Source: Acidaminobacter sp.
GTDB lineage: Bacteria > Bacillota_A > Clostridia > Peptostreptococcales > Acidaminobacteraceae
Reading direction: 5' to 3'
Length of the DNA stretch: 22,536 bases
Assembly: GCA_009881125.1 (NCBI GenBank)
Contig: WXFH01000022.1
Coordinates: forward strand, 1-22,536
The notes below the pieces were generated by a model, which was not told the DNA's origin, did not search any database, and saw only the letters and a list, made by a program, of their open reading frames with translations. A program made the translations under genes and the position numbers. This document shows, piece after piece, positions 387 to 21,406 of the stretch; positions within the stretch are counted from its first letter, which is position 1, and each line of letters opens with the position of its first letter.

Positions 387-795
387 GGTTCGGAGTGATG
401 AATTCTGTGTTTTCAGCAGAAATTATTGTCCAATCCCCTCCTTATTTTTTCTTATAAGTTCAGCCATTTAAGGTTTGGTATAATGTTATGTTAACCAACA
501 TCAGCATTTCCAATGCTTCCACTGATTAAATACCCTTTTAACAAAATCTCATGCATCATAATGTACAAAATTTTTAATTCAAACTTGTAATAATAACAAA
601 ATATTGGGGAGAGTTACAAATTGAAAAGACGGTGTTATTCATTACTTTCGTCTCTATAAATGAATATTTCGGGGTTGATCAGAATATTTTGAAATCTTTT
701 TGAAACTATTTTGGGAGGATGTTACAGGACCATCGGCGGGGAGGGGTTGAAGGGGGGGTTGAATCAGGTTGGAGAGGCTGATTTATTGGCAGACA
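387..795. other. Intergenic region between riboswitch 1 and locus 2
   Basis: No convincing gene. It holds a promoter-like block (ATGTTATGTTAACC, 483-496) related to the block upstream of riboswitches 2 and 3, AT-rich sequence to about 700, and one copy of the iterated word GACCATCGGC at 728-737. Confidence 0.5.
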
Positions 796-827
796 AAAAC
801 CGGACCATCCAAGGACGATCCGGTTTT
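796..827 (-). terminator. Terminator of the locus 2 surface-protein gene
   Basis: AAAACCGG pairs with CCGGTTTT around a short loop, just past the stop codon at 840. T-runs on both sides suggest it could act in both directions. Confidence 0.7.
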
Positions 828-839
828 GGGGTTTTCTTT

Positions 840-2900
840 TCAATACTGGTATTTCAGGAATGCTCCTGCGAGGAGGAGCAGGGTGCCGAGGAGATTGAGC
901 ATGCTGGCCTGAGCCTCACCGGTTGGTGGGAGCTCGTTTGGGGGCTCCCAAGGTGGGGCGCCTAAAGGTGGCGGCTCTTCCTCGACGATTTCAGTTTCTG
1001 GTGGTTCGTCAGGCGGGCCTTTTGGAGGGAGCTCCGGCGGAACGTCTTCCGCTGTGGTGTCCCTGTAGTTGCCCACGTTGAAGGTTAGGGCCTGAGTGGA
1101 GTTGATGGTGATTGGTGGTGAGAAACCATCGGCGGAAAAGGATGGGGAAGTGATGGTGTAGTCGCTGACTTCCCGCAGATAGTAGGTGCCATACCGCAGG
1201 TTGGTGAAGGTGAGGTCGCCCGCGGCGCTGGATTTCTTGGTGTGCAGCAGGGTGGTCTTGTCCGCGGCGTAGAGTTCGAAGGTGATGTTTTGCATGTCGA
1301 ACTCAGAAGGGTCCTGGAGGTTGTTTTGATTGGTATCCAGGAACTTGTGGACGCGGATTTCGCCTCGTTTATCCTGTGGTTTTGGCGGTGGATCTAGGTC
1401 TCCTGGTGGATCGGGATCCGGTTCGCGCTCGTTGATCACCGTGATTGTGGCGCTGCTGTGTTCCTTCGTCAGTTGGAAGGAGAGGGCGCCGGCAGTGACG
1501 GTGGTGTCGCCCCAGGTGATGGATTTGAGGATGTGACCATCGGCAGAGGCTTCACTTAGAGTATAGGCAGTGAGCGGCAGATCCTTTAGGGTGATGCTGG
1601 CGTTGTGGCCGGCCAGCTTAAGGATATTTTCGTAGTTGTCATGATCCCGGAGGGTGAAGGTGAATTCGGTGTGGTCGTCGGTGACGGGCTGGCCCTGGGT
1701 GTCTACGATTTGCTTGATCAGGGTAAGGGTGCCGGTTGGCGGGGTGGGGTTGGCATCCTGTTGATTGGTGACGGTGACCTCGGCTGTCGTTTCCGGATTA
1801 CTTCCGCTAAGTGTAATCGTCAGCGCGCCGTCGGTGATCGTGTCACCGGTCTGGATGCTCTTCAGGGTGTAGCCTTCCGGGGTATCTTCGGTGATCGTGT
1901 AGGTGCCTGGGTCCAGGCCGTTCAGGGTGACGGGGGTGCCGTCGCCTTTCAGGGTGTGCGTGTGGGATGTGCCGTCCGGGTATTTGATTTCAATGTTAAA
2001 GGTGTCGTTGGTGCTTATTGGTTTATGGTCGGCGTCGACGACTTTTTTAGTGAGCTTCAGAGCGGCTGTGCAAGTTGGAGGATCCTTTTTCTGGTTGGTG
2101 ACGGTCACGTGGTGATCGAGATCATCTTCGCTAATAGTGATCTGCAGATCGTTGGTGGCGGTCTGTGTGCCGGAAGTGATGCCTTCAAGAGTGTAGCCGT
2201 CTGGAGCGGCCTCGGAAATCGTGTAGGTGCCGAGGGGCAAGTTGGTGAATGGTGGGGCGGTGCCATTGCCGGTGATCGTGGCCGTGGTTGTGGTGCTGTC
2301 TGGATATGTGATGGTGATGTTAAATGGGGTCTCGTCATCCTCAAGGATTTGATTTTCTTGGCTGATGACTTTTTTGTGCAGGGTGATGCATCCAGTCGGG
2401 TTGGTTTCGGGTTCACAGATAGTGACTGTGATGAAACCGTACCATGGGCCTTTATCTGGATCAAGGATGTCACCCGTATAGGCGGTTTCAGTGCCGGAGA
2501 CTAGGTGGAGGATCAAATACCTCGTCAGGCATTGGCCAGGGGTGAGCTCCGGAAGGGCCAGGTCGACTGGACCTATGGTGAAGTCAGTGGCTTTGTCCAG
2601 GTCTCCATTTTTAATAGGTGCGTGACCGGGATTAAGCCTGTCGGTGGGTTCCTCTTCCAGGATGTAGAGGCTGTATTCATCGGCCGGCCAGTCGGGATCC
2701 ATGGTGATATGGATGGTCAGCATGCCGCTGTCGATTGTGACATTGGCACTGCCAATATGTTCGTTCTGGCCGGCAATGACCTGGAAGGATCCTTGGAAGT
2801 CATGGATCTCATCTGCCATGGATGGGAAACTCGTGATGATCATGGCAAAGATCATCATGAGGCTGACAAGGGATTTCAGTTTGTTTTTGATGCCTGACAT
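840..2900 (-). CDS. LPxTG-anchored SpaA/Cna-B repeat surface protein (locus 2)
   Basis: 686 residues from the ATG at 2900, chosen because AGAGGTGAG lies 5 nt upstream; an upstream extension lacks a ribosome site. A signal peptide (about 1-31, ending SMA) is followed by a ~130-residue N-terminal domain shared with locus 4 (motifs GQN, ETAYTG, ICEP). Next come three Cna-B-type prealbumin folds with the K...E...N isopeptide pattern (LHKKV / YTISEA / VTVTNQ), then one SdrD-B-like repeat (VHKFLDTNQNN), a Pro/Glu-rich wall span and the sorting signal LPPTGEA with hydrophobic tail. The final tail (KYQY) has only one basic residue. Predicted role: sortase-anchored adhesin or matrix protein, transcription controlled by riboswitch 2. 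The ligand is unknown and no sortase gene is in the window. Confidence 0.88.
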   Translation of the reverse strand: MSGIKNKLKSLVSLMMIFAMIITSFPSMADEIHDFQGSFQVIAGQNEHIGSANVTIDSGMLTIHITMDPDWPADEYSLYILEEEPTDRLNPGHAPIKNGDLDKATDFTIGPVDLALPELTPGQCLTRYLILHLVSGTETAYTGDILDPDKGPWYGFITVTICEPETNPTGCITLHKKVISQENQILEDDETPFNITITYPDSTTTTATITGNGTAPPFTNLPLGTYTISEAAPDGYTLEGITSGTQTATNDLQITISEDDLDHHVTVTNQKKDPPTCTAALKLTKKVVDADHKPISTNDTFNIEIKYPDGTSHTHTLKGDGTPVTLNGLDPGTYTITEDTPEGYTLKSIQTGDTITDGALTITLSGSNPETTAEVTVTNQQDANPTPPTGTLTLIKQIVDTQGQPVTDDHTEFTFTLRDHDNYENILKLAGHNASITLKDLPLTAYTLSEASADGHILKSITWGDTTVTAGALSFQLTKEHSSATITVINEREPDPDPPGDLDPPPKPQDKRGEIRVHKFLDTNQNNLQDPSEFDMQNITFELYAADKTTLLHTKKSSAAGDLTFTNLRYGTYYLREVSDYTITSPSFSADGFSPPITINSTQALTFNVGNYRDTTAEDVPPELPPKGPPDEPPETEIVEEEPPPLGAPPWEPPNELPPTGEAQASMLNLLGTLLLLAGAFLKYQY

Positions 2901-2961
2901 TTTACTCACCTCTCTTGTGGTCGGCACCGGGAGCTATTAAATTAGATTGTTTACAATTGAA

Positions 2962-3003
2962 TAAAAAATGACTGCCATGACAACGAAACGTTGCACATAG
3001 CAG
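2962..3003 (-). terminator. Intrinsic terminator of riboswitch 2
   Basis: CTGCTATG pairs with CATGGCAG, with an inner GCAACG/CGTTGT stem, followed by TCATTTTTT on the minus strand. The left arm overlaps the 3' strand of P1 of the aptamer. Confidence 0.78.
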
Positions 3004-3084
3004 CCGGTCGACCGTGGGCAGGGATCCTGCCGGTAGGCCTTGGCTTTGCGACCCAGCCTTTCGGTCTGGTTTGCCTTTATATGT
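2995..3084 (-). promoter_or_regulatory. c-di-GMP-I (GEMM-I) riboswitch 2
   Basis: On the minus strand: P1 ACATA/TATGU, AGGCAAACC, a CGAAAG tetraloop-type hairpin, GGGUCGCAAAGCC, a long P3 and CCGGCUGC. P3 here carries a longer GC-rich stem (GGCAGGAUCCCUGCC) and lacks the CCUAAA...UAUGG receptor seen in riboswitch 4. It lies about 95 nt upstream of the locus 2 start. ON logic is inferred from the overlap of P1 with the terminator. Confidence 0.85.
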
Positions 3085-3137
3085 TTGTCGTTATGGGGAT
3101 GGATGTTTAGGTTTTCTTGTGTATTGATAGTCTGCTG

Positions 3138-3330: not shown

Positions 3331-3616
3331 CCCTCGCTCCGCTTTTAGCCTCGCAGGGCTCGGTTAAAAGCTGCGCTTCGGTTAGGGCTGCGCCCTATAT
3401 AAACAAAGATAACGCAGTGGGTCAGAGAACAAGATCTCTGACCCGTGGTGGCTGAACATGCACCTCGCGATACCAGACGTGCCCCTCGCTCCGCTTTTAG
3501 CCTCGCAGGGCTCGGTTAAAAGCTGCGCTTCGGTTAGGGCTGCGCCCTATATAAACAAAGATAACGCAGTGAGTCAGAGAACAAGCTCTCTGACCCACTG
3601 CGTTATCTTTGTTTAT
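3331..3616. repeat. Two-copy MITE-like repeat with a 30-bp palindromic end
   Basis: A unit of about 110 bp occurs at 3331-3441 and again at 3483-3593 (offset 152) with very few differences. Inside are smaller inverted pairs (GCTTTTAGCC/GGTTAAAAGC). The second copy ends in a near-perfect 30-bp inverted repeat: arms 3551-3580 and 3587-3616, one mismatch, beginning ATAAACAAAGATAACGCAGT. The first copy keeps only the inner GGGTCAGAG/CTCTGACCC stem. No ORF of mobile type is inside. A non-autonomous element is the likeliest reading. Confidence 0.6.
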
Positions 3617-3634
3617 GCACGTCTTTGCTTAAGA

Positions 3635-3864: not shown

Positions 3865-3902
3865 AAAAAACTGCCACGACAACAACAAGTTGTACATAGC
3901 AG
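3865..3902 (-). terminator. Intrinsic terminator of riboswitch 3
   Basis: CTGCTATG pairs with CGTGGCAG (eight pairs) with an inner ACAAC/GTTGT stem, followed by TTTTTTAATTTT on the minus strand. Confidence 0.8.
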
Positions 3903-3975
3903 CCGGACGACCATGGTTTTGCTTTAGGCCCAGGGCTTTGCGCCCCTGCCTTTCGGCAGGTTTGCCCTTGTATGT
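3894..3975 (-). promoter_or_regulatory. c-di-GMP-I (GEMM-I) riboswitch 3
   Basis: P1 ACATA/TATGU, GGGCAAACC, CGAAAG hairpin, GGGGCGCAAAGCC, GGGCCUAAAGC...CCAUGGUCG and CCGGCUGC. All conserved parts are intact although the gene it controlled has been deleted, so it now seems to control nothing but the tail remnant. Confidence 0.87.
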
Positions 3976-4007
3976 GATTTGGTTCAGTATGTAGTGATGA
4001 TCTGTCA

Positions 4008-4356: not shown

Positions 4357-6705
4357 TTATCTCAAACGTTTAAGGAACATCCCGGCAATCATGATCAGGC
4401 TGCCGAGAATATAATAGGATTCAACTCCGGTTTCGCCGGTATCTGGGAGTGCCAGTGGAATAGGTTCTTCCACTATTTCTATTTCTGCTGGGAGTTCTAC
4501 AACTACGGCTGCTGGCACTTCGTCTCTGATGTTACCGACGGTGATGATGAGGACATCATCGGAATCTATTTCGATTGGTTCGCTGCTGAAACCATCGGCA
4601 TCAAAGCCTTCGGTAGTGATTCTGAAGTCGCTGACTTCTTTCAGGTAGTATTCGCCAAATTCGAGGTTCGGGAAGGTGATGACGCCTTCGGCGTCGGTCA
4701 TCTTGGTGCTGATGAGGTCGTCTCCTTCAGCATCGTAGAGTTCAAAGGTAATGCCAACCATTTCGAATTCGTCGGCGTCGAAGATGCCGTCCTCATCGGA
4801 ATCCAGGAACTTTTGGATGCGGAGGGTGCCGAGCTCGACTGGGTCCTCGTCATCGTCGTTATCACGTGGCGGCGGTGGGGACTGCCTGTAGTTGCCAACG
4901 TAGACGTGGAGAGTTTCTTCTTCATCCAGATCCATGACTTCTATGAAGCCCTGGCTGTTAACTGAAGTGGTGATAATTCTGGAACCGAGCTCATCGAGGA
5001 AATAATCGCCAGGCTCGAGGCCGCTGAAGGTGATTATGCCGCTGCCATTGGTTGTGCCGGTGCGGATTGGCTCGTCGTCGTTCATGGACTCGAAGAGTTC
5101 GAAGTCAACGTCGGAGAGCCAGGATTCGTTGTCGTCTTTCGCGCCATCGCGGTCAGTGTCGTTGAATTTGTGGACTATGATGGTGCCATCCTCTGGCTCA
5201 GGCTCACCAGGGATGAAGTTGCCAACGTAGACCACGTGTGTGGTGTGCTCTTCGTGGAGGTGAATGTCCATCTCGCCGTCTTTGAGATCCTCAGGCGCGG
5301 TGATTTCAAAGGTGCTGTGTTCTTCGAGGACATAGTTGCCAAATTCGAGGTTGTTGAAGACAAGCTTGCCGTCCTCATCTGTTTCGCCGCTTGCGACTTC
5401 CATCATTGAAATGGCTGATTCGCTGGTGGATGGCATGTCGTTTTCCATGAAGAGTTTGAATTCGATATCTTCAAGGGCAGGTTCGCCGTTGTCCCAGACG
5501 CCATCTTTGTCTTCATCTTCAAATTTCCAGATGGTGATGGAACCGGTTTCGCCCTCGCTGTAATAGTTGCCTATTTTGATTTCAAGCGGATTTTCGAAAT
5601 CTTCGCCGCCGACTTCAATTTCAAAGAAGCCTTCGTCATCGAAAACCGGCGTTGTGATGATGGCGCTGCTGTTCTCCTGCAAGTAGTAGGTGCCGGCTTC
5701 GAGACCGGTGAAGAGAAGCTCGCCATCCTCGTCCGTGTAGCCGTGCTGGAGTGGAGTGTCATCTTCAGGATCTGCGAAGAGCATAAAGTGGATGTCTTCG
5801 AGGAAGTCGTCATTGCCGTTCATTTTGCCGTCTCTATTTAGGTCTTCGAATTTCACGATTCTCACGTCGAAGGTGTCATCCGGGATAATGTTGCCAATTT
5901 CAACGCGGGTGATTTGGTCTTTTTCGATGGAGATGGTGAGGAGACCATCGGCAAAGACCTGTCCTGTGATTTCGTTGCCGGACAACTCTTTAATGGTGTA
6001 ATCGCCGACCGGGAGGCCGGTGAGCTCGATCAGGCCGTCCTCGTCCGTGGTGAATGGGGAGCCGTCAAGCTCCTCGTCGTCTTCATTATAGATTTCGAAC
6101 TCGATGCCGGAGAGGGCTTGCTCGTCGTCATCATCAAATTCGCCGTTCCCGTCGAGATCGTGGAATTTGAAGATAGTCAGGCTGCCGAATTCAGGATCGG
6201 GATCGTCAGGCTCACAGATTTGGATGTGGATGAAGCCGAACCATGCGCCGCTGCTCTCTTCAGAGTCAATAACCGTGCCAGCATAAGCGGTTTCTCCGCC
6301 GACAGCCAGGTGAAGGATGATATAGAGATCCTGACACTGGCCTGGGTCGAGATCATCGAGGTCAAGGGTTATTGGACCGATGTCAAAATCTTCTTTTGCT
6401 GGATTGAAGCTTCCTTTGTGTTCAGCCTGGCCAGGTGTTGGACGTGAGTCTGGCAGGCTATCGAAAATGTCCAGATGGAACTCGCTGGCTTTTTGGCCTT
6501 CATCCAGGTTCACGTCGATGGTTAACTGGTCACCATCGATTATCACAGTAGCTTCACCGATAATCATATTCTGACCTGCTGTAATATCAAAAGTACCTTC
6601 AAAGTCGTAAACTGTCGCCGCCATGGACGGCACGCTCATCAACAACATCGCCAAAATCATGCTCAAACTTAGAAATCTTTTGATTCTGTCTTTCATACCT
6701 AACAT
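4357..6705 (-). CDS. LPxTG-anchored acidic SdrD-B repeat surface protein (locus 4)
   Basis: 782 residues from the ATG at 6705, set by AGAGGTGAG 5 nt upstream. A signal peptide (about 1-30, ending SMA) is followed by an N-terminal domain shared with locus 2 (GQN, ETAYAG, ICEP). Five SdrD-B-like repeats then follow, each opening K-F with an Asp-rich loop: DLDGNGEFD, DLNRDGKMN, DEDKDGVWD, DTDRDGAKD, DSDEDGIFD. These DxDxDG loops resemble EF-hand-like calcium sites known in SdrD-B domains. The wall span ends LPDTGET with a hydrophobic segment and a basic KRLR tail. The protein is strongly acidic. The fifth repeat is the closest relative of the last repeat of locus 2, which points to module exchange. 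Likely a sortase-anchored adhesin under riboswitch 4. Confidence 0.88.
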   Translation of the reverse strand: MLGMKDRIKRFLSLSMILAMLLMSVPSMAATVYDFEGTFDITAGQNMIIGEATVIIDGDQLTIDVNLDEGQKASEFHLDIFDSLPDSRPTPGQAEHKGSFNPAKEDFDIGPITLDLDDLDPGQCQDLYIILHLAVGGETAYAGTVIDSEESSGAWFGFIHIQICEPDDPDPEFGSLTIFKFHDLDGNGEFDDDDEQALSGIEFEIYNEDDEELDGSPFTTDEDGLIELTGLPVGDYTIKELSGNEITGQVFADGLLTISIEKDQITRVEIGNIIPDDTFDVRIVKFEDLNRDGKMNGNDDFLEDIHFMLFADPEDDTPLQHGYTDEDGELLFTGLEAGTYYLQENSSAIITTPVFDDEGFFEIEVGGEDFENPLEIKIGNYYSEGETGSITIWKFEDEDKDGVWDNGEPALEDIEFKLFMENDMPSTSESAISMMEVASGETDEDGKLVFNNLEFGNYVLEEHSTFEITAPEDLKDGEMDIHLHEEHTTHVVYVGNFIPGEPEPEDGTIIVHKFNDTDRDGAKDDNESWLSDVDFELFESMNDDEPIRTGTTNGSGIITFSGLEPGDYFLDELGSRIITTSVNSQGFIEVMDLDEEETLHVYVGNYRQSPPPPRDNDDDEDPVELGTLRIQKFLDSDEDGIFDADEFEMVGITFELYDAEGDDLISTKMTDAEGVITFPNLEFGEYYLKEVSDFRITTEGFDADGFSSEPIEIDSDDVLIITVGNIRDEVPAAVVVELPAEIEIVEEPIPLALPDTGETGVESYYILGSLIMIAGMFLKRLR

Positions 6706-6773
6706 TGTTCTCACCTCTCGCTTTCTTATTATTCGTAATCGCCTCAAATGCGTCAATTGCTTTCAAGGGCAAA

Positions 6774-7169: not shown

Positions 7170-7205
7170 GACCATCGGCAAAGAACAGGGATTTTGCCGA
7201 TGGTC
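7170..7205. repeat. 13-bp perfect inverted pair of the iterated word
   Basis: GACCATCGGCAAA and TTTGCCGATGGTC face each other across a 10-nt spacer. No T-run follows on either strand, so it is not a standard terminator. The same 13-bp pair recurs at 21339-21406. Confidence 0.85.
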
Positions 7206-7271: not shown

Positions 7272-10200
7272 TTAGTTACCAGGCATTCTCACAACTGCGT
7301 GAGCTGCGACATAGACTGGACCTGTAACAGCGATACTTGCGCCATCCTCATAAGGGAATTGGCCAGGCGAATCTGTCATCTTGCCATTTTTCATCTTAGG
7401 AAGATTGGTTGCGCCAATCCAAACGTGAGTGTCCATCAATTCAAAGCCGTCAAGCATGTGGTAGGTTACGGTGACGTAACCGCCGGAGTAAACAATTTCA
7501 ACATGTCCAACTAAAGTGCCATTTTCTACAATGTTGCCGCCAGCACCAGCGATTAAGTCGTGGGTTTCGCTATATCCATCGGTGATAGGACCAATATTCC
7601 AGCCCCAGTTTTTGGATTTTACGGAATCCCAGTTCTCATTATTTCCAAATGCCCAAGCGGTTTCATCGTGGTATGCCATAGTATTCGTGATTGTGACTAT
7701 GGCAGGTGACGCAGCGCCTGCAACGACCATCACGGATTGTGGACTGATGCTGGAAGTGAAGTTTTCACTGCCAGGGAAAGCCAGCTCGCTGAAGCTGTAT
7801 TCACCAGGGATCAAGTCGTCCAAAGTTACAGATCCGGACCCGGTTACTTGATCGATCTCAATAACAACTTCAAACCCTAACAGATAGGAAGGACCGGTCA
7901 CGACAACGACGATTTCTTCAGGCCATAAGGTCTCATCGCCGCCGACGAAGTTCTTCGTGATCATCAGCGAACCCGTCATGAAGACATTCGTGAATTCAAC
8001 GGATGCTGTTTCGCCGTTTTCCACGTCGACTTCGATTGGGAGTGTTGGTGCCATCCAATCATCCGGCACGTTGACCTCTGTGATTTCATAGGTGCCTGGA
8101 AGCAGATTTTCAAGTTTTACATAGTAGCCTTCAGCTTTTTCGAGTGTCACATCCAGACCATCCGGATCATAGGAAGGTCCTTCAATGTGAATGTCGATTG
8201 TCTCTGGAAGCATGGAGTCTTCAAATCCCACAACGCCTTCGTAATCGAAGAGTTTGGTGATTTCAAGGTCGCCAGGGACGTAAACGTTGGTGAAGCTGAT
8301 GGAGACGAGACCATCGGCTAAAACTTCCTCGGTAATTGGAAGTTCTGGCGCCTCCCATTCGTCCCCGACTAGGATTTCGTCAATGCTGTAGTCGCCAGGG
8401 ATCAGGTTTTCGAGCTTCACGTAGTAGTTGTCAGCTTTATAAAGTGTGACATCTAGCCCATCCGGATCATAGGAAGGTCCGGTAACGTGGATGTCAATGG
8501 ATTCTGGAAGCATCTCTACCACAAATCCCACAACGCCTTCATAATCGAAGAATTTGGTGATCTCAAGGTCGCCAGGGATAAAGGTATTTGTGATGGAGAC
8601 TGTGACTGTCGTTTCTGCGCCTGCTACTACAGCGGCAGGTGACCCGGTGATCAAAGATTCCCACATTTCAGAGCCTGTAAATTCCAACTCGTCGACGGTA
8701 TAGTCACCAGGGATCAGGTTGTCGATGGTCACTTCGCCAACACCCAAATCGCTAATTGGGATGTCGACTTCCGTACCCAATGGATACGAATTGCCTGTGA
8801 CCATGACGGTGATTTCAGCCGGCAGCATTGTTTCTGGATCGAAGCCTACAATATCTTCGAAATCGAATTCTTTGGTGATTTTTAACTCACCAGGTTCAAA
8901 GGTATTTGTGATGTCAACCTGAACAGCCGTCAACGCACCACCGACTACTGTTGCAGGTGAACCAACAATTGCTGAATCCCAAGCCCCAGAGCCTTCAAAG
9001 GTAAGCTCTTCTACGGTGTAGTCATCAGGAATCAGATTATCAAGGAGTGTCTCGCCTTCGCCAAATTCATCAATGTCAATGTCTACAACAGTTCCCAGTG
9101 GATAGGAAGCGCCGGTGACTTTGACTGAAATGGAAGCTGGCAGCATGGTGTCAGCATTAAAACCTTCAATGCCTTCAAAGTCAAATACTTTGGTGATGCG
9201 AAGCTCACCAGGGATGAAGGTGTTGGTGATCATGACTTCAACCACTGGGTTGGCGCCGGCGATGACTTCGACCATTTCTGGATCAATGTCTGAGTCCCAA
9301 GCGTCTGAGCCCGTAAAGGCAAGCTCTTCAATAGTGTAGTCACCTGGAATGAGATTTTGGAGAAGCGTAGTGCCGTCACCAAGATCGTCAATATTGATTG
9401 TGACTTCTGTTCCGGCTGGATAAGAAGGTCCGGTGACCTCGACTGTGATGGAATCTGGCAGCATTGTGGCGCCGTCAAATCCGAAGATGCCTGCAAAGTC
9501 AAAATCCTTAGTGATGCGAAGCTCACCTGGCATAAAGGTGTTGGTGATGGAAACGACGACAGCCTCCAAAGCGCCGCCGACGACTTCGACAGACTCAGGG
9601 TCAATGTCAGAATCCCACATCTCTGAACCGGTAAACGCCAGTTCATCCACCGTATAATTGCCCGGGATCAAATTGTTGAGAGTAACTTCGCCAATGCCTT
9701 CGTCGCTAATAGTAATATCGACTTCGGTCCCCGTAGGATAGGAAGGACCAGTGACTTCGACCGTAATTTCATTCGGAAGCATAGTCTCAGCATCAAAGCC
9801 TTCAATGCCCTCGAAATCAAATTCTTTAGTGATTTTGAGAGAACCGGTCAGGAAGACGTTAGTGAAATCGATTTCAACGACGTCGCCTGCGATAACCGAA
9901 ACGTCAATTGGTACATCTGGCGCATCCCAGCCTTCAGGAACATTGATTTCCGTAATGCTGTAATCGCCAGGGAGCAGATCTTGGAGAAGGAGATAGTAAT
10001 CGTCATCCTTCAAGAGATCAAAATCAGCGCCATCCGGATCAAAGGAAGGACCAGTGACATGGATGCCGATGGATTCAGGAAGCATCTCATCTGTAAATCC
10101 CTCAACGTCTTCATAATCGAAGAGTTTGGTGATTTCCAGATCTCCGGTCATCCTGTTGCCAAAGTTCTTGTTTGTGAAAGCAAAATTATTTCTGTCGATG

Positions 10201-11435
10201 ACAATCATATAACCTTGATCCGCCAATTCGACGCCTGAGCCTTCATCAATATCATTCAGATAATCATTGTAGTTGTCAAAGCCGCCAAACGGATCGGTTA
10301 CATCAAACTCACCAGTTGGGAAAGTTTGAGTCCAGCCTGTTTCAGAACCGCGGGTGACACCTTCTGTGATATACCTTGTGCCATAGGTCAGGGTAGGGAA
10401 GTTATAGACGCCGTTGGCGTCTGTCAAAGTACTGAGAACAAAGGACATGCCTTCAATGTCAGCGGTGATATAAATTGGCCAGTTGGCGAGGAATGGTTCA
10501 TTGGCATCTTTGATGCCGTCGCCGTTCATGTCATGCCATTTATATCCGGTGACACTGCCGAGGTTTTGGGAAGGAATAGGAATTGGTACTGTTCTTAATG
10601 CGCCGAGCAATTTGGCATGACCAGAGGATCCTGGATAGTAGAATGAACCAAAGTTACTGACGCCGTCGAATGCTGTGCCCTCTTTATAGATGTGCCCGCC
10701 CCATTCTTCTGCAGGTACGCCCACATCACCATAGTGCTGGAATAGCCCACTTTGCCACAGTGAAGTTCTGGCCAAGTGAAGCTGGAAGTAAATAACCAGT
10801 GTTTTTACGTTTTCAGGTACGCCAGCATCTTTTAATTGCTGGTCTGTGATTCGGAAATGTGCGACTGGGCTAGTCGGTGTGAGTGGAATAAAGTTTGTCC
10901 CGTCATGCCCCAGGTTAATTTGCTCTTTTGGAACGTCAACCAGTTCAAAGTCATCCCATTTTCCGATGACAGGATCAGCCTGTGCGGCTTCCATCTGATC
11001 GACAGTTGTGATTGGTGAAGTTTGTGAAGATGGGTAGCCCATCTGGAGATCTGTCAACGCGATATTAGCGTTGTCGGTCAATGACCATCGGACTTGGAAG
11101 CCCCTGACTAAGTCAACGAGTACGGCATCCTTTTGGCTGCCGTAAAAGTCATACGCGACTGCGACTTCAGGCAGATCGGTCAAATTATCGATGCCTGTCA
11201 GCACCAGCTGATAAGGGACCCAGTCGCCTTCGGCCCAGCCATTGCCCAGGTTGGAGTTCATCCAGCGCGTGTCAGCCAGCTGAGTCTGTGTGTTATTGTA
11301 GGAAACCCTGTAGCCGTACAGTGTTTCATCGGCAGCGAAGCTGCCTATCGGCATCATGGCTAAAATCATGATGACCAGCAGGAGCAGCGGCATCAGCCGC
11401 CTCAAGCCGGATTTAACAATGTGATACTCTGACAT
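7272..11435 (-). CDS. Large secreted Cna-B-like multi-repeat protein, no LPxTG
   Basis: 1387 residues from the ATG at 11435, preceded by GGAG at good spacing; a GTG 9 nt further out is too close to it. After a signal peptide (to about FAADE) comes a ~270-residue unique region, then an SdrD-B-like domain (YKWHDMNGDGIKDANE) and eight prealbumin-like repeats of two kinds: type A (EITK.FDYE..VGF, GPS(F/Y)DPDG) and type B ((R/K)ITK.FDFE, GPSYP.GTEV, ITNTF.PG). The order is A-B-B-B-B-A-A-B. The last ~110 residues are a different domain (AWAFGNN, NWGWNIG, YHMLDGFELMDTHVWIG, GQFPYED) of a kind found at the end of other secreted bacterial proteins. There is no sorting signal, SLH or C-terminal membrane helix, so release or non-covalent attachment is inferred. 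Confidence 0.85.
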   Translation of the reverse strand: MSEYHIVKSGLRRLMPLLLLVIMILAMMPIGSFAADETLYGYRVSYNNTQTQLADTRWMNSNLGNGWAEGDWVPYQLVLTGIDNLTDLPEVAVAYDFYGSQKDAVLVDLVRGFQVRWSLTDNANIALTDLQMGYPSSQTSPITTVDQMEAAQADPVIGKWDDFELVDVPKEQINLGHDGTNFIPLTPTSPVAHFRITDQQLKDAGVPENVKTLVIYFQLHLARTSLWQSGLFQHYGDVGVPAEEWGGHIYKEGTAFDGVSNFGSFYYPGSSGHAKLLGALRTVPIPIPSQNLGSVTGYKWHDMNGDGIKDANEPFLANWPIYITADIEGMSFVLSTLTDANGVYNFPTLTYGTRYITEGVTRGSETGWTQTFPTGEFDVTDPFGGFDNYNDYLNDIDEGSGVELADQGYMIVIDRNNFAFTNKNFGNRMTGDLEITKLFDYEDVEGFTDEMLPESIGIHVTGPSFDPDGADFDLLKDDDYYLLLQDLLPGDYSITEINVPEGWDAPDVPIDVSVIAGDVVEIDFTNVFLTGSLKITKEFDFEGIEGFDAETMLPNEITVEVTGPSYPTGTEVDITISDEGIGEVTLNNLIPGNYTVDELAFTGSEMWDSDIDPESVEVVGGALEAVVVSITNTFMPGELRITKDFDFAGIFGFDGATMLPDSITVEVTGPSYPAGTEVTINIDDLGDGTTLLQNLIPGDYTIEELAFTGSDAWDSDIDPEMVEVIAGANPVVEVMITNTFIPGELRITKVFDFEGIEGFNADTMLPASISVKVTGASYPLGTVVDIDIDEFGEGETLLDNLIPDDYTVEELTFEGSGAWDSAIVGSPATVVGGALTAVQVDITNTFEPGELKITKEFDFEDIVGFDPETMLPAEITVMVTGNSYPLGTEVDIPISDLGVGEVTIDNLIPGDYTVDELEFTGSEMWESLITGSPAAVVAGAETTVTVSITNTFIPGDLEITKFFDYEGVVGFVVEMLPESIDIHVTGPSYDPDGLDVTLYKADNYYVKLENLIPGDYSIDEILVGDEWEAPELPITEEVLADGLVSISFTNVYVPGDLEITKLFDYEGVVGFEDSMLPETIDIHIEGPSYDPDGLDVTLEKAEGYYVKLENLLPGTYEITEVNVPDDWMAPTLPIEVDVENGETASVEFTNVFMTGSLMITKNFVGGDETLWPEEIVVVVTGPSYLLGFEVVIEIDQVTGSGSVTLDDLIPGEYSFSELAFPGSENFTSSISPQSVMVVAGAASPAIVTITNTMAYHDETAWAFGNNENWDSVKSKNWGWNIGPITDGYSETHDLIAGAGGNIVENGTLVGHVEIVYSGGYVTVTYHMLDGFELMDTHVWIGATNLPKMKNGKMTDSPGQFPYEDGASIAVTGPVYVAAHAVVRMPGN

Positions 11436-12699: not shown

Positions 12700-12755
12700 T
12701 TATAAAATTAAGAGAGGGTGCTGCCGATGGTCACCCATCCACAACACCCTCTCTT
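12700..12755 (-). terminator. Terminator of the SLH/GH18-type gene
   Basis: AAGAGAGGGTG pairs with CACCCTCTCTT and is followed by AATTTTATAAAA on the minus strand. The loop contains one copy of the iterated word GACCATCGGCA (12723-12732). Confidence 0.75.
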
Positions 12756-14870: not shown

Positions 14871-14910
14871 TGGGGATGCCTCCTCTAATTTCGTTATAAA
14901 GATATCGCCC

Positions 14911-14959: not shown

Positions 14960-15040
14960 GAGTCTGCAAACAAATGAACGCGGCACTTTAATAGAATACC
15001 CCCCCAAGTTATGGGTTGTACCAAAGCCCCGATCCCAAGA

Positions 15041-15937: not shown

Positions 15938-16651
15938 ATCCTTTACAAGCCCTTCAAGTTCAACATTCGGCACCCTGATCTGAACGAACGTCTCAGCGCT
16001 GTCATCAAGAGGCATGTAGAAGAACACGACTTCGTCAGGTCTGAAGAAGAGTCTCAGCCCTTCATACTCAGCGCCATCCGAATACCCTGCCTCCACAAAT
16101 TTGTCATCCAGAATCTTCGCGAAGGCATCCCTGGACGCAGGATCGTCCTTGATGAAATTCTCAAAGGTAATCTCGTTTGAAGTTTTCAGATCCAAATTGA
16201 CGCTGTCCAGATAATTGAATTTACGTCCGCCTTCCAACTGCACGGTTCCAATCTGAATAACACTGAGCATCTCCTGGGTTTTCAGAGTGACCCTGTAATC
16301 CAATTCTAGATCGGTATAAGAGGTACCAACCGTCAATGTTTCGACAGGTTCTCTCAGACTCTGGTTCATATAATCCTGGAGCAGCTCGCCTTCAAAACCC
16401 GAAATTTGGGGATAGGCAATTTTAATGCGCCTGTCTTTCTCCTCATAAACTTGCGTCACGAGCACATAGCCATCTTCATTCACTGGATCCTCAAGCTTCT
16501 CGTCAGGAGTTTGATCCAGAGCTTCTGACCCGCTTTCCGATGGCGTCGCTGCCTCTGCTGACAATGGCGCACAACCCGCCAGCGACAGACTCGCTGCAAC
16601 AATAAAGGTCAGAATCAAATAGGGTAAAGGTAAAGTTTTGCGTAGTCTCAT
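15935..16651 (-). CDS. RsiV/DUF3298-like lipoprotein, copy 2
   Basis: 238 residues from ATG 16651 (AGAGGCG upstream as in copy 1). The mature domain is identical to copy 1 in the aligned part; the changes are in the signal peptide and linker (KTLPLPYLIL versus KAFPMSFLIP, and the residues just after the lipid Cys27). Its stop TAG comes from the duplication junction (GATTAGGCCC), the same TAGGCCCGTACC that ends the anti-sigma gene, so the protein lost the last residues of copy 1. It lies about 150 nt downstream of the anti-sigma gene on the same strand and is probably co-transcribed. Confidence 0.8.
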   Translation of the reverse strand: MRLRKTLPLPYLILTFIVAASLSLAGCAPLSAEAATPSESGSEALDQTPDEKLEDPVNEDGYVLVTQVYEEKDRRIKIAYPQISGFEGELLQDYMNQSLREPVETLTVGTSYTDLELDYRVTLKTQEMLSVIQIGTVQLEGGRKFNYLDSVNLDLKTSNEITFENFIKDDPASRDAFAKILDDKFVEAGYSDGAEYEGLRLFFRPDEVVFFYMPLDDSAETFVQIRVPNVELEGLVKD

Positions 16652-16807
16652 ATAGCTCGCCTCTTTCTTCATAACTTTTTTCGCTTTTTCTGTACCTGGT
16701 ACCACAATTGAAGTTCGTGAAGTTGTTTTTGATGAAAACATGCAACAGCAGTCTTTTCAAATTAATTAAACGTCAGCGTTCCGAAAATCGTGCCAGGTAC
16801 GGGCCTA
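15938..16807. repeat. 870-bp tandem direct repeat, unit 2
   Basis: Unit 2 carries copy 2 of the lipoprotein and its leader, ending at the last codons of the anti-sigma gene. The junction with unit 1 is at 15937/15938. Confidence 0.9.
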
Positions 16808-17722
16808 CTTCAAATACACCCGGCTCACCAGCACATCCTTCAGAACTTCAGTCGGTATGGTGAACGTCAAAACCCCCATATAGCCCGGCGCGACTTCATA
16901 CTTATCAAAAGAGATGACCAGTTCGCCCTCCGCGCTGATATAAAAGCTCTGATCCCTGGCAATGCGCCCAAACAGCGGCATGTCCACCGACTGCTCAATC
17001 CCTTCCACCCAGAAGAACCGGTTCGGATCAGCCTGGTGCTGGGCCACCATCTGGCCCTTGATCTCCTCGCTGATGAGGTCAATGTAGCGGTCGTCCTTAA
17101 ACAAGCTAGGCAAGGTAATGAGGATCTCATTCACTTTATCAATGGTGTCATACCGGAAGACCGTCGATGACGAGCCCACCGTATTCACCACATATCGTCC
17201 AATAGACAGGATCTCCGCCGTGTCAGTCAGAACCAAATACCCGCTATCCACGCCCAGATGTCCGCCGCCCGCCTCTTTCAGAGCGGCCATATCCGCCATG
17301 AAGGTTTCATAGAGGGCTTTATTCTCCGACAGGTACTTGGCATTCAAGAAGTCCTCGAGGTCTTGGTTTTCCAGCCCTTCGATGCCCGGCGACTGAAGGC
17401 TCGCGTCATAAGAGTCTTCCTGATGGGTGTATTCTCTAAGTAGGAAGACCTTGACTAGTTGACCGACCATCGGCAGACGTCCTGCTTTTTCAGCGAAAGT
17501 GGGGCTCAAATTGATGCCTGCCACGAAGAGGACGAAGGCAGCTGCCAGTGAAGCCGCGGCCACCAGAAAGCCCTTGGCGGCGCGATGCTTGCGAGGCCCT
17601 ATCCCATGCCTACCAGAAGCGCCCATGGCCTGGCTCAGGGTCTGGTTCACCAGCGCCTCCAGCTCGTCGGGAATGGGAATGCTGTCATACGCGTTCCGAA
17701 GTTTTTCGATTTTAGGATCCAT
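16805..17722 (-). CDS. RsiV-like transmembrane anti-sigma factor
   Basis: 305 residues from ATG 17722 (MDPKIEKLRNAY), preceded by AAAGGCGG. The start overlaps the last 11 nt of the sigma gene (TATGGATCCTAA), so translational coupling is likely. A cytoplasmic part (1-50) is followed by one membrane helix (about 50-70, FLVAAASLAAAFVLFVAGI) and the NLSPTFAEKAGRLPMVGQLVKVF segment typical of RsiV-like proteins. The C-terminal DUF3298 domain (about 215-305) has FYISAEGELVISFDKYEVAPGYMG. In RsiV this domain binds lysozyme and triggers cleavage that frees SigV. One copy of the iterated word (17465-17474) lies inside the gene, encoding PMVG. Confidence 0.87.
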   Translation of the reverse strand: MDPKIEKLRNAYDSIPIPDELEALVNQTLSQAMGASGRHGIGPRKHRAAKGFLVAAASLAAAFVLFVAGINLSPTFAEKAGRLPMVGQLVKVFLLREYTHQEDSYDASLQSPGIEGLENQDLEDFLNAKYLSENKALYETFMADMAALKEAGGGHLGVDSGYLVLTDTAEILSIGRYVVNTVGSSSTVFRYDTIDKVNEILITLPSLFKDDRYIDLISEEIKGQMVAQHQADPNRFFWVEGIEQSVDMPLFGRIARDQSFYISAEGELVISFDKYEVAPGYMGVLTFTIPTEVLKDVLVSRVYLK

Positions 17723-18227
17723 AGGTGTTTCCGCCTTTCTTGTCCGAGTCCAACTCCGATTCCAGCTCGAGACGCAGCATTTTAAGGGATTTGTAGAGGC
17801 GCGTTTTGACCGTGCTGAGGGGGAGGCCGGTGACCTCGGCAATGTCATTCAGGGGCAGGTCCTCAAAATACCTCAGCACCACAACGGTCCGGTAATGCCC
17901 CGGCAGCCGCTCCAGCGCCTGATGCAGGTCGTAATCCTCCATCGGGTCGTCCACAACTGCGTGGAGTGTCTCGAAGGCCTCATCATCTGCCAAAACCAGC
18001 TTTTTTTGCTTCCGCAGGAGGTCCAGGGCCGTGTTGATCACGATCCGGTAGAACCAGGTCTTGATGAACTCAGGCGACTTCAGCGTGTGGGCGCCGTGAA
18101 TCGCCTTGCAGACCGACTCTTGGATTACATCCAAGGCGTCGTCCGGGTTCTTGACATAGCTATAGGCAAGCCGGTAGTGGCTTTCTCTGTTTTCGGTGAC
18201 ATAATCCGCGATCCGTCGGCTGTTCAA
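17712..18227 (-). CDS. ECF RNA polymerase sigma factor (SigV-like)
   Basis: 171 residues. The start is TTG at 18227 with GTGAGG upstream. Sigma-2 region about 12-78 (YRLAYSYVKNPDDALDVIQE, TWFYRIVINTALDLLR) and sigma-4 region about 105-160 (LPGHYRTVVVLRYFEDLPLNDIAEVTGLPLSTVKTRLYKS) are intact. It is the partner of the overlapping anti-sigma gene, and the pairing with an RsiV-type anchor makes a SigV-like role (lysozyme or wall damage) the best guess. A candidate autoregulatory promoter lies 44 nt upstream. Confidence 0.9.
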   Translation of the reverse strand: MNSRRIADYVTENRESHYRLAYSYVKNPDDALDVIQESVCKAIHGAHTLKSPEFIKTWFYRIVINTALDLLRKQKKLVLADDEAFETLHAVVDDPMEDYDLHQALERLPGHYRTVVVLRYFEDLPLNDIAEVTGLPLSTVKTRLYKSLKMLRLELESELDSDKKGGNTYGS

Positions 18228-18270
18228 TGTCGAGTCCTCACTTTGCTTCTTAATAGTAGCGCTACATTCC

Positions 18271-18300
18271 TTAGACGCCCGAGGTGCCGGGAAAGTTTGC
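18271..18300 (-). promoter_or_regulatory. Candidate ECF-type autoregulatory promoter
   Basis: On the minus strand GCAAAC (18300-18295) and CGTCTAA (18277-18271) are 17 bp apart. This fits the ECF pattern of AAC at -35 and CGTC at -10 used by SigV/SigM/SigX-type factors. Confidence 0.55.
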
Positions 18301-18347
18301 GCACTTTGAAAAATTTCAGTCGTAAATTTCCCGCAGTGCCTCGGGCG
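18276..18347. repeat. Long inverted repeat overlapping the sigma promoter
   Basis: CGCCCGAGG (18276-18284) pairs with CCTCGGGCG (18339-18347), with an inner GGGAAA/TTTCCC pair. The promoter's -10 and -35 lie in the left half. Confidence 0.7.
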
Positions 18348-18535
18348 CAGATTTCGCCGGCACAGACCTGCTCACCCTGTGGATCTCATAATTGAGAAGT
18401 CGTGAGTAGGTGCTCCGGATTTACCCGTTTTCAGAGACACAAAAACAAAGCTTCTGCCGATGGTCATTCAACCGCCAACCTGCACATGGCCAAAGTCCAA
18501 TAAAGGCCGAACATCAAAGGGTCAGCCGCTTTTCA
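18348..18535. other. Short intergenic stretch
   Basis: No gene seen. It contains one copy of the iterated word as TGCCGATGGTC at 18455-18465. Confidence 0.5.
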
Positions 18536-18947
18536 TCAAACGAAAACGATCCCCTTCGAAATGAATCTCTCAACCTCATGGATCAGCCGCGCCTGATCCT
18601 CCGGCAGCGTCCCCTTGATCTTGATAATATTCGTGGGATGTGTCGTATCAAAGATTATTCGCTCTGTAGTCTCCAACGTTTCAAGAAGCGTCCGGACTTC
18701 CTCCAGCCGCTCTTTGCTGCTGGGAGGAACAAACTCTCCCCGCTCAACCATTTTGCTCAGAGGCGTTCCATAAAAAACCGTCAGATTCATGGTAATGACC
18801 CTGTTCGTCTTAAACTGGTTTATCATTTTCGCTATCCTTATACATTGAGCAGTACACGCATTGGTTATACCAGCAGCCAGTTGTCACCGGCAGTAAAACT
18901 GACGCCAATTCGTCCGGCGGAAAGAAGATTGCGTGGTTGTCATACAT
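18536..18947 (-). pseudogene. Radical SAM protein gene with internal deletion
   Basis: The first part from ATG 18947 reads YDNHAIFFPPDELASVLLPV then TTGCWYNQCVYCSMYKD, a radical SAM Fe-S site (CxxxxCxxC). It hits a stop at 18810. The other frame (stop at 18536) carries the family's C-terminal end: TMNLTVFYGTPLSKMVERGEFVPPS and GTLPEDQARLI. Intact members carry roughly 150 more residues between these parts (the barrel), which are missing, and the join is out of frame. Two fragments of one gene with no active product are therefore inferred. Confidence 0.75.
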
Positions 18948-19383
18948 GGTCAGATCATTCCTTTCGCAAATGTTAATCAAAATTGGTCTCAATCTCGTTT
19001 TAATTTTTCACGAAACGAATTCGCTATTCAACTTATTCCCTAAATTCATCCTGAATATCCATTCGAGACTACGCTTGAAGAAGCAAAGCGGCCGCTGCGG
19101 TGACATTAATAAGACTATCGGCAAATGCTTTCTGATTATTTTCTGACGGCAATTCTGGGTTTTACTTCATCTGTAACTGGTATCTAGCGACTCGTTTATT
19201 GAAAATTAATTGCTGTTAGGATTGTAACGAATTTCATTATCGGCGATTCACTGGTACAGGGGGGATTAACCAAAGAATTAACGAAATCTTAAGCGTAAGA
19301 ACCGAAATATTAGATATATAAGCAATATAGGAATATTGCCTCATTCCTTTGATCATTAGGCATTTAAACAAGGAGGTCTTACA
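18948..19383. other. Divergent intergenic region upstream of the bactofilin-like gene
   Basis: No gene seen. It contains a near-match of the iterated word (GACTATCGGCAAA, 19113) and a small perfect hairpin GCAATAT-AGGA-ATATTGC at about 19322-19339. It should hold the promoter of the gene at 19384, but I cannot name boxes with confidence. Confidence 0.4.
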
Positions 19384-20565
19384 ATGCTGAACATAAGACC
19401 AAAACACGTTAGCTGGTCAACAGCGCTGATAGTGCTTGTGCTGGGACTTATGATGACAAATCTGTCGCTGGGCGAATCCATCCGGGGGAATCAGACACCT
19501 TTATCCATGCTTGAGGCAGGCACCACGGTGGACGGGCCAGGTTTTTTTGGCGGCAGTACGGTTAGAGTAGATGGAAACGTTGACGGCACCACCTTTGCCT
19601 TTGGGCAGAACATTACCGTCAATGGCGACATCAACGGCGACCTGATTGTTGCAGGCCAAACCCTCACCATCAACGGCAAGATCAACGGGAATATTTACGG
19701 CGCAGGGCAGACGGTCACAATCCGGGGGCAGGGCATGCGCGACGCCTTCCTGGGCGCTCAGGACATCAATCTCTCCAAGGATTCACTAATTGGACGCGAC
19801 CTTTTCTTTGGCGGTCAAACCTTCATATTTGAGGGTGTTGTGACGCGGGATCTCCAAGGTGGCGCCATGGATGTTGACCTCAATGGCCAGATCGGCCGAA
19901 ACGCTCAGCTCGAAGCAGAAAACATCAGACTGATGGACAATGCCGCAATCAATGGTGATCTTTTCTACACAAGCTCAAGAGAAGCCTTACAATCACCAGC
20001 GGCGAAAGTTGCTGGCCGCACAGACTGGGAATACAGGGAACCCGCGGCTCCGGCTCAGATGAGGCCTCATAGGCTGACCAGGGCCAGCACTTACTGGGGC
20101 ATGCTGATCAACATGGCAGGTGCTTTGATCATATGGTTAGCCGTAAAACTGTGGCAACCGGAATATTGGTCTAAGGCTTCAAGCCATATATCAGAGACAC
20201 CGCTTAAAACACTGGGTGTGGGCGCCCTTGCCCTCATTGTCGTGCCAATTTTCGTCGTTCTCGTCATGATCACTGTAATTGGGATTCCTCTGGGCGTCAT
20301 CACGGGACTGATCTACGGTGTCTCACTCTATTTGTCCAAGATTGTAGTTGCCGTCTTTATAGGCTCATGGCTATCGAAGCGGCTGGGATGGCCGGAAATT
20401 CACAAAGGGATATGGCTGTTCCTGCTGGGTCTTCTGATCCTCACGGCATTCATGCAAATCCCTTATCTTAGTTTGCTGATTCGTCTGCTCGTTGTTTTTG
20501 CAGGGATTGGCGCGCTGGTGCTCTCGTGGCTGCCAAAACCTTCTGTGAAACAACTGAGTTTCTAA
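19384..20565 (+). CDS. Bactofilin-like polymer-forming membrane protein
   Basis: 393 residues, ATG 19384 with AAGGAGG 7 nt upstream. An N-terminal signal or anchor segment (about 12-32) is followed by a right-handed beta-helix-like region (about 50-200) with short repeats such as VDGNVDGTTFAFGQNITV, NGDINGDLIVAGQTLTI and NGKINGNIYGAGQTVTI, as in bactofilin/polymer-forming domains. The last ~160 residues hold four to five membrane helices (from about 235 to 385). Family members are annotated only as polymer-forming or cell-shape-related, so a scaffold role at the membrane is inference. Single gene on the plus strand, followed by the racemase gene after about 39 nt. Confidence 0.78.
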   Translation: MLNIRPKHVSWSTALIVLVLGLMMTNLSLGESIRGNQTPLSMLEAGTTVDGPGFFGGSTVRVDGNVDGTTFAFGQNITVNGDINGDLIVAGQTLTINGKINGNIYGAGQTVTIRGQGMRDAFLGAQDINLSKDSLIGRDLFFGGQTFIFEGVVTRDLQGGAMDVDLNGQIGRNAQLEAENIRLMDNAAINGDLFYTSSREALQSPAAKVAGRTDWEYREPAAPAQMRPHRLTRASTYWGMLINMAGALIIWLAVKLWQPEYWSKASSHISETPLKTLGVGALALIVVPIFVVLVMITVIGIPLGVITGLIYGVSLYLSKIVVAVFIGSWLSKRLGWPEIHKGIWLFLLGLLILTAFMQIPYLSLLIRLLVVFAGIGALVLSWLPKPSVKQLSF

Positions 20566-20604
20566 AAGAGTTTTTCTACCATTAAACGACAAAGGAGTAT
20601 CCCC

Positions 20605-21309
20605 ATGAAAAAGTTCGGACTCGTCGGCGGCCTCGGCCCAATCTCCACCCTTGAGTATTACAAGAGCATCCACGACTTATACCGTGAAAAAGTAGAGACG
20701 ACCGGTGTTTGCGCCAGCAATCCACCCATGGTCATTGACAGCCTGGACTTGGCCGTCGCTTACGATCTGGTGTCACGCAAGGACTGGAACACCTTGTCAA
20801 AGTGGCTGATCGCTTCTATTGAAAGGCTGCATGGGGCGGGCGCTGAGTTTGCCGCCATAGCTGCCAACACCGCCCATATTGTATTTGATGAAATCCAGGC
20901 GGGGTCCCCCATTCCCGTCATTGGTATTGTGGATGAAACTTGTAAATACGCCCACGCCAAGGGTTTGAAAAAGCTGATCGTGTTCGGCACAGGATTCACC
21001 ATGGAGAGCGGCATGTATGAAAAGGCCTGCGCCAAGGTTGGCATTGAGGCCATTGTGCCGAATAAAGAGGATCAGGTGATCATCCACAACATCATCTTCC
21101 CGAACCTGGAGGCCGGAATTGTCCTGGCGGAAGAAAAGGCGGCCATGCTGGGCATCGCGAACAAAATGCTCGCGGCGCATCAGGCGGACGCCCTTGTCCT
21201 GGGCTGCACGGAGCTGCCCCTCATTATCAAAGAGGGCGATCTCGACACGGTGTTGATCGACACGACGCAGGTGCATATAGAGGCCATTTTGCGGAAAATC
21301 CTGAGTTGA
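20605..21309 (+). CDS. Aspartate/glutamate racemase family protein
   Basis: 234 residues, ATG 20605 with AAAGGAG upstream. The family normally uses two cysteines, one per half, to move the alpha proton of Asp or Glu. The start KKFGLVGGLGPISTLEYY and the second site VLGCTELPL (Cys201) match well. At the first site the motif reads IAANTAH: Ala87 stands where most members have Cys and E. coli YgeA has Thr. This may mean altered substrate, one-base chemistry or loss of racemase activity. Likely cytosolic, spaced for co-transcription with the upstream gene. A 13-bp inverted pair of the iterated word follows the stop. Confidence 0.82.
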   Translation: MKKFGLVGGLGPISTLEYYKSIHDLYREKVETTGVCASNPPMVIDSLDLAVAYDLVSRKDWNTLSKWLIASIERLHGAGAEFAAIAANTAHIVFDEIQAGSPIPVIGIVDETCKYAHAKGLKKLIVFGTGFTMESGMYEKACAKVGIEAIVPNKEDQVIIHNIIFPNLEAGIVLAEEKAAMLGIANKMLAAHQADALVLGCTELPLIIKEGDLDTVLIDTTQVHIEAILRKILS

Positions 21310-21338
21310 GGATTGAGGGCGCGGGGTGAAGTTAAGAC

Positions 21339-21406
21339 GACCATCGGCAAAGTTTCCTTGAAAAGTCTTTAAAGGCTTTCAAGAGGAGATTTTTTTGCCG
21401 ATGGTC
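21339..21406. repeat. 13-bp perfect inverted pair of the iterated word, with nested stem
   Basis: GACCATCGGCAAA (21339-21351) and TTTGCCGATGGTC (21394-21406) flank a nested imperfect CTTGAAAAG / CTTTCAAG pair. There is a T7 run inside the right arm but no T-run after it. Lies about 30 nt past the racemase stop. Confidence 0.85.

Follow-up and report, generated by a model that had tools for sequence, protein, structure and literature searches.

To our knowledge, DNA uptake sequences have been described from two bacterial families, the Neisseriaceae and the Pasteurellaceae. Passages in the literature on these families report that the DNA uptake sequence (DUS) of Neisseria is over-represented in the core genome and absent from recently acquired genes (PMC2397512), that pairs of uptake sequences lying within 10 nt of each other, in Neisseria as in the Pasteurellaceae, are almost never direct (PMC1852404), and that in Haemophilus influenzae about 65% of the uptake signal sequences (USS) are located in open reading frames (ORFs), which compares with 86% of the genome being coding, and have no general orientation bias (PMC2346458). 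The 2026 TerminatorNet paper, based on a search of the terminators of thousands of genomes, reports uptake sequences in Neisseriaceae and Pasteurellaceae (PMC13020248). Here we describe a 10-bp word, GACCATCGGC, and its 9-bp core, ACCATCGGC, which recur in a 22,536-base stretch of DNA (49.0% GC; hereafter the window) from the Gram-positive anaerobe Acidaminobacter sp. (Bacillota, Clostridia, Peptostreptococcales, Acidaminobacteraceae). Judged by the pattern of its occurrence, the core with its degenerate flanks is probably, on balance, a DNA-uptake-type self-recognition signal of the genus Acidaminobacter. No published account of the word, or of an uptake sequence in Bacillota, was found in a search that left preprints and most subscription papers outside its reach.

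Abundance of the word in the window and in the genus

The window was compared with two genomes. The nearest one (G001, in 70 contigs) contains 91% of the window's sampled 31-mers; 22.2 kb could be aligned with its contig C35 in three blocks of 97.4-99.9% identity, and 13 of the 13 cores are kept. The second (G002) is the genus-mate Acidaminobacter hydrogenoformans DSM 2784 (type strain; 8,000 bases of contig C19 are identical to NZ_FMWL01000001.1), which matches the window at approx. 70-83% identity in the larger blocks.

Both genomes are rich in the word: G001 carries 647 copies of GACCATCGGC (307 and 340 on the two strands) versus 2 of the reversed word, and G002 carries 543 (264 and 279) versus 5. 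The statistics on flanks, pairs and codons given below were obtained from 1.036 Mb of G001 and 0.75 Mb of G002, with 427 copies and genes called by our own simple ORF caller. In these samples the core was found 246 times against 3.6 expected from a fourth-order Markov model (G001) and 181 times against 1.8 (G002), an excess of approx. 70- to 100-fold. The genome-wide signal proposed in the initial annotation of the window is therefore borne out, and the opposite outcome, few copies elsewhere, is contradicted by the counts.

Strong enrichment is restricted to these two genomes among the 247 (122 genera) sampled from the order: ACCATCGGCA occurs 675 times in G001 and 652 times in G002, and the next genome (G066) has 36 copies with a control of 3, so that slight enrichment exists outside the genus. 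Within the family (41 genomes, 21 genera) the next highest count of GACCATCGGC is 26, with a reversed control of 15. The top-ranked repeats of G001 and G002 are otherwise species-specific, and the word is common to both lists. Samples of 40-80 kb from eight genomes contained no comparable word, whereas one was obtained from each of the three 80-kb stretches of G001 and G002 used as reference. Phage records contained no match to an idealised 38-base motif. A wide database scan with an inverted pair gave 114 loci among the matches listed, with 2 to 4 core copies each; save for one in A. hydrogenoformans (L136), these look like chance occurrences, and more distant bearers of the word may exist.

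In the window itself, GACCATCGGC is the most frequent 10-mer, with 11 exact copies on either strand, and GACCATCGGCA has 9 copies. When one mismatch was allowed, 16 matches were obtained versus a shuffle mean of 1.51, and none of 100 shuffles reached 16. The core is present 13 times, in the 11 exact copies and at 1124 and 4590 (AACCATCGGC); the latter two keep the 9-bp core and are true members of the set. On recount, all 11 starts given in the initial annotation were recovered, and its division into seven intergenic and four intragenic copies agrees with the ORFs. Its near-matches at 1124, 11083 and 19113 were also found, but the start of the one placed at 4589 is 4590, and a further near-match, at 8721 (minus strand), had been overlooked. 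The copies are as follows (the corresponding, near-identical region of G001 is part of the flank model used for scoring):

728..737, plus strand: exact copy, intergenic, flank score near 0
1124..1133, plus strand: core copy preceded by A (AACCATCGGC), within SpaA-domain gene 840-2927
1535..1544, plus strand: exact copy within gene 840-2927, encoding ADG
4590..4599, plus strand: core copy (AACCATCGGC) within SpaA-domain gene 4357-6756
5943..5952, plus strand: exact copy within gene 4357-6756, encoding ADG
7170..7179, plus strand: exact copy, intergenic, left arm of an inverted pair
7196..7205, minus strand: exact copy, right arm of this pair; fold of 7160-7215, -26.6 kcal/mol, z -5.7
8309..8318, plus strand: exact copy within SpaA-domain gene 7272-11444, encoding ADG
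8721..8730, minus strand: one-mismatch copy (GACCATCGAC) from the mismatch search
11083..11092, plus strand: one-mismatch copy (GACCATCGGA) from the mismatch search
12723..12732, minus strand: exact copy in the upper portion of a hairpin between genes, the stem of which is followed by a short T run; -40.3 kcal/mol, z -8.9
17465..17474, plus strand: exact copy within DUF3298 gene 16805-17848, encoding PMVG
18456..18465, minus strand: exact copy, intergenic, with the top flank score in the window (17.2)
19113..19122, plus strand: one-mismatch copy (core ACTATCGGC); in both genomes no other one-letter variant has a higher excess
21339..21348, plus strand: exact copy, left arm of an inverted pair, downstream of racemase-family gene 20605-21309
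21397..21406, minus strand: exact copy, right arm of this pair; fold of 21320-21425, -44 kcal/mol, z -6.5

Anatomy of the motif and constraint at the DNA level

The repeated unit is a strict 9-bp core inside a degenerate motif of approx. 40 bp. The 5' flank is poor in C and A and rich in G/T at about -15 to -8, with a purine at -3 and -1, and the 3' flank is A-rich at +10 to +13 and T-rich at about +16 to +20. These preferences are shared by the 147 intergenic and the 280 coding copies, the flank log-odds of the two classes being correlated at 0.81 near the core and at 0.35 far from it. Moreover, they hold across species: a flank model trained on G001 gave the G002 copies a mean score of 5.58 versus -5.63 (standard deviation 4.15) for random sequence, and a model trained on G002 gave the G001 copies 4.31 versus -6.60 (4.37). 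The flank models, like the 57-site test described below, omit copies at most 40 bp from the end of a stretch.

Beyond the core, the flanks agree in composition only, and there is no conserved flanking sequence of the kind expected of repetitive extragenic palindromic (REP) elements or miniature inverted-repeat transposable elements (MITEs). Nor is the core palindromic (its reverse complement is GCCGATGGT), as a repeat of the highly iterated palindrome (HIP1) type would be. The combination of a strict core with degenerate flanks recognised across species indicates a signal of approx. 40 bp that has a direction, and not a spread element. Two alternatives that had been raised for the window, one recently spread element with conserved flanks and a spreading palindromic element, are therefore contradicted; the word is also used in several reading frames.

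In the first 400 kb, most single-letter variants of the core occurred about as often as expected by chance, and over the whole sample one-mismatch cores numbered 255 versus 197 expected in G001 and 176 versus 141 in G002. The variants with the most excess are altered at the outer letters (positions 1, 3 and 9), ACTATCGGC ranking first in both genomes. Strong flanks accompany 8 of the 171 variants altered at the inner positions 4, 5 and 7, versus 9 of the 25 with C-to-T at position 3.

The constraint on the word was shown to act at the DNA level, since in all frame classes it exceeds the expectation given the peptides and codon usage. The tripeptide TIG is spelled with the word at 70 of 126 places in G001 (7.1 expected) and 43 of 113 in G002 (6.5 expected), and ADG at 46 of 130 (4.2) and 33 of 95 (2.6), respectively; the word is also in excess in the remaining four classes. 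Conservation at orthologous places, which the initial annotation had put forward as a check, was observed as well. Between the two species the identity of the core is 0.825 versus 0.752 for the flanks (57 sites, places conserved in both species being counted from both sides; sign-flip P 0.0026), and the exact word is retained at 15 of 29 alignable places of G002 and 15 of 36 of G001 (copies outside alignable blocks omitted), versus 9.5% for comparable 9-mers. The sites are therefore conserved, yet they turn over.

These results bear on the reading of the word as the recognition site of a modification or restriction system, or as a mutational artefact. A fixed, non-palindromic word present through the genus would be in keeping with it, but the excess over the Markov model persists when peptides and codon usage are allowed for, the flanks and the orientation of pairs are structured, and a continuous 9-bp site is unusual for restriction systems. 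We find this explanation scarcely credible.

Orientation, pairing and distribution of the copies

With GC skew taken as a proxy for replication, the G-rich strand carries 230 of the 427 copies (P 0.12). The word is therefore not polar in the way that Chi sites or FtsK-orienting polar sequences (KOPS) would be, and the suggestion of a segregation signal, of the KOPS or SpoIIIE recognition sequence (SRS) type, is contradicted. Intergenic copies are enriched (147 of 427, versus 12.6% of noncoding DNA).

Of the neighbour pairs less than 200 bp apart, 34 of 35 are inverted (18 in the -+ and 16 in the +- arrangement) and one is direct, and at 200-1000 bp there are 53 inverted pairs versus 26 direct ones (P 0.003). 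The only explanation that we can offer for the excess at these longer distances is that the copies behave as if they were a directionally read signal. Taken together to approx. 1 kb, same-orientation pairs number 27 versus approx. 51 expected, and inverted pairs 87 versus approx. 51.

The close pairs raise the possibility that the element is a hairpin, a terminator or a REP-like repeat with the word in its arms. Such pairs do fold well: the two inverted pairs of the window and the hairpin at 12.7 kb each fold better than all of 200 shuffles, a T-run is visible by eye 3' of the stem in some pairs, and for 9 of 98 solitary intergenic copies an inverted partner with one mismatch lies no more than 60 bp away, versus none for the reversed-word control. 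However, 356 scored copies, of which 258 are coding, are solitary in that the next copy is more than 200 bp away, and an inverted partner with one mismatch was found inside 60 bp for no more than 11 of these 356 (control 4). Furthermore, there is no shared sequence around the copies, a REP-like repeat of a sister genome looks quite different, and a terminator scan lists no hairpin of the word in the part of the window scanned. For most copies this reading is already contradicted, and as a general account of the word it is very improbable, although intergenic inverted pairs may in part be reused as RNA hairpins.

Copies were found throughout the 1.79 Mb examined, but their density is uneven, rising from 0.40 per 10 kb in bins below 42% GC (10 bins) to 3.58 in bins above 51% (50 bins). 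The even spacing that had been anticipated for a genome-wide signal is present in some sub-segments, but longer stretches are uneven; since these sub-segments were picked after looking, we do not use spacing as support. Two stretches bearing prophages (with phage portal genes) and a low-GC Tad-pilus block, which may be mobile, together span 80.7 kb and contain 3 copies, whereas 78.7 kb would be expected to have 18.8 (P 9e-6). Here low GC serves as a proxy for recently acquired DNA. The longest genes of the 10 low-GC bins encode a beta-helix surface protein, two polysaccharide flippases, a sugar transferase, IS605 OrfB, a nucleoside-gate protein, a sigma-54 activator, an adenine deaminase and members of the flagellar FlhA and FliF families.

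Within the prophage-bearing stretches, two of the three cores (G002:C17:42522 and G001:C42:8762, one per phage) lie inside a tentative tail tape-measure gene, so labelled from the gene start, length and place.

The distribution has to be weighed against two other functions. In the first, the word would be a Chi-like site, telling a nuclease of the AddAB/RecBCD type to stop degrading and to load recombinase. The density of the word is near that of Escherichia coli Chi, the 5' flank is G/T-rich, scarcity in low-GC and prophage DNA would fit such a site too, and so would the avoidance of same-orientation neighbours below 1 kb, given reading in one direction. On the other hand, the copies show no strand polarity, the core is not rich in G, the Chi sites of Bacillota are shorter, and neither intergenic enrichment nor tight inverted pairs are features of Chi as we know it; a Chi function is thus improbable. 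In the second, the word would be bound by a chromosome-organising or other abundant DNA-binding protein and selected at each site. A strict core, long asymmetric flanks and conservation between species are consistent with this, but again there is no polarity, copies are spread, though unevenly, over all the DNA examined, the two congeners differ in the word at 14 of 29 and 21 of 36 alignable sites, and the scarcity in low-GC and prophage DNA demands an extra assumption. This possibility is unlikely, if somewhat less so than Chi.

Other repeats were also seen. A palindromic one, GGTGTCTGACAC(C), is ranked alongside the word in G001, its 12-mer being present 57 times in 1.04 Mb, and is not among the top words listed for G002, where GGTTGGGGAC-type repeats take its place. 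The candidate dialect GGAATCGCAC of G034 (L259, L303) was rejected as REP-like: it has 60 copies in the genome, and the 8 seen share long flanks and a second GGAATC arm. In 80 kb of G028 (L254, L296-L298), 6-7 copies of a repeat built around CTCACAAAGGCGG were seen, and G040 contains 7 copies of GGATTCGAACC, which we take to be tRNA arms.

Five cyclic di-GMP (c-di-GMP) riboswitches are present in the window on the minus strand, which is that of the surface-protein genes (303-385, 2996-3085, 3895-3976, 6808-6889 and 11864-11950; one c-di-GMP-I-GGC, three c-di-GMP-I and one c-di-GMP-II-GAG). Interspersed repeats of roughly 100-450 bases (approx. 3370-3630, 15804-15934, 16677-16805 and 21973-22441) have many partial matches elsewhere in G001 and G002, mostly at approx. 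70-90% identity, and matched no Rfam family at gathering score. Two adjacent genes (15041-15871 and 15935-16741) encode near-identical lipoprotein-like proteins (276 and 268 aa) and apparently arose by recent tandem duplication.

Competence genes and comparison with known systems

The initial annotation had named competence genes as a further check, and the result is mixed. ComEC is above the cut-off in both G001 and G002, and both contain a ComEA-like frame of 172 aa, which is below the family cut-off; the G001 frame, the one scanned, has a helix-hairpin-helix domain. In the case of the pilus, PilB, PilT, PilC and N-methyl pilins occur in one locus of G002 (named by us from the Pfam families T2SSE, T2SSF and N_methyl), and a type IV pilus shared by both genomes is unsupported, this full set having been seen in G002 only. 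A surface protein combining SLH, ComEC-type metallo-beta-lactamase and LTD domains is near-full-length only in G001 and G002 among the matches listed from the 41 family genomes, and the two proteins share 78% identity. It is a weak candidate for a receptor or nuclease, its restriction being weak evidence because it concerns a single genus.

In copy number, strand symmetry, intergenic enrichment, inverted pairs, motif, constraint and scarcity in low-GC and prophage DNA, the word has the uptake-type profile attributed to it in the initial annotation; that the motif raises uptake, that it has a receptor and that it is subject to drive is what we infer. A surface or pilus-associated DNA-binding protein would prefer fragments with the approx. 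40-bp motif and hand them to ComEA/ComEC, homologous recombination would copy motif-bearing alleles into recipients, and motifs would build up wherever coding permits, through molecular drive and/or selection for self DNA. The chances seem to us even that sequence-specific uptake of self DNA has here arisen independently for a third time, and for the first time in Gram-positive bacteria (Bacillota), in which there is no outer membrane to cross, with directional recognition of approx. 40 bp and same-orientation neighbours avoided within approx. 1 kb. An uptake-like watermark throughout the genome of a cultured type strain of Bacillota was not to be expected, and it lends itself to direct tests. 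If true, such an origin in a type strain of Clostridia that is in culture would allow molecular drive and selection for safe recombination to be tested, as causes of self-DNA preference, under a different cell envelope; it would also suggest a new class of DNA receptor with sequence specificity.

Several observations speak against an uptake function. (i) The machinery does not predict the word, since ComEC matches were found in 40 of the 41 family genomes (14 above cut-off), 38 of which lack strong enrichment. (ii) No N-methyl pilin match was obtained in G001, and its PilB matches are weak (at most 31.7 bits), one of them being, by its neighbours, a Tad-type ATPase (our label) in a low-GC block; as G001 is in 70 contigs, absence of the pilus is not certain. 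(iii) Same-orientation neighbours are avoided to approx. 1 kb, for which we know of no precedent. (iv) The terminator scan (window positions 6700-22000) gave 14 sites versus 16.1 in shuffles, with none of the word's hairpins listed. (v) The presence of flagellar and other genes in low-GC bins means that not all such bins need be foreign. (vi) No dialect was found in sister genera in 14 stretches of at least 10 kb (of 20 fetched), a search of low power, given that the word itself ranked first or second among the 10-mers in no more than 2 of 6 20-kb chunks of G001. (vii) H. influenzae has a higher density than the approx. 1 copy per 4.2 kb found here. (viii) The excess of one-mismatch cores is only mild, whereas it is larger for a known 10-bp uptake word, for which a passage of the source gives 947 one-mismatch forms versus 86, with a different expectation (PMC1939737).

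Among the systems compared, REP elements and MITEs (e.g., GGAATCGCAC in G034) resemble the word in having inverted arms and in being repeated around the genome, but the 8 copies seen in G034 share long flanks, whereas in the word only the core is fixed. E. coli Chi, GCTGGTGG, has a similar density and is genome-specific; it is also polar to replication and G-rich, and the word is neither.

The DUS of the Neisseriaceae, GCCGTCTGAA, is like the word short and non-palindromic, and it occurs on both strands, in and between genes, and in hairpin-forming inverted pairs. The word differs in its sequence, its phylum, its lower copy number and its long G/T-rich 5' flank, in the near-equal numbers of +- and -+ pairs (16 and 18), where Neisseria favours +-, and in the lack of an N-methyl pilin match in G001. 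The USS of the Pasteurellaceae, AAGTGCGGT, shares with it a 9-bp core in a longer one-directional motif, and the proportions in H. influenzae (approx. 65% in ORFs, 86% coding) are close to those found here (280 of 427, or 66%, and 87%). The cores are unrelated, the word having a G/T-rich flank upstream and an A-run and a T-rich stretch downstream where USS has two downstream A/T tracts, and a milder one-mismatch excess. As far as we can see, the core is a variant of neither DUS nor USS; by its pattern, the arrangement of the word appears to work like that of an uptake sequence.

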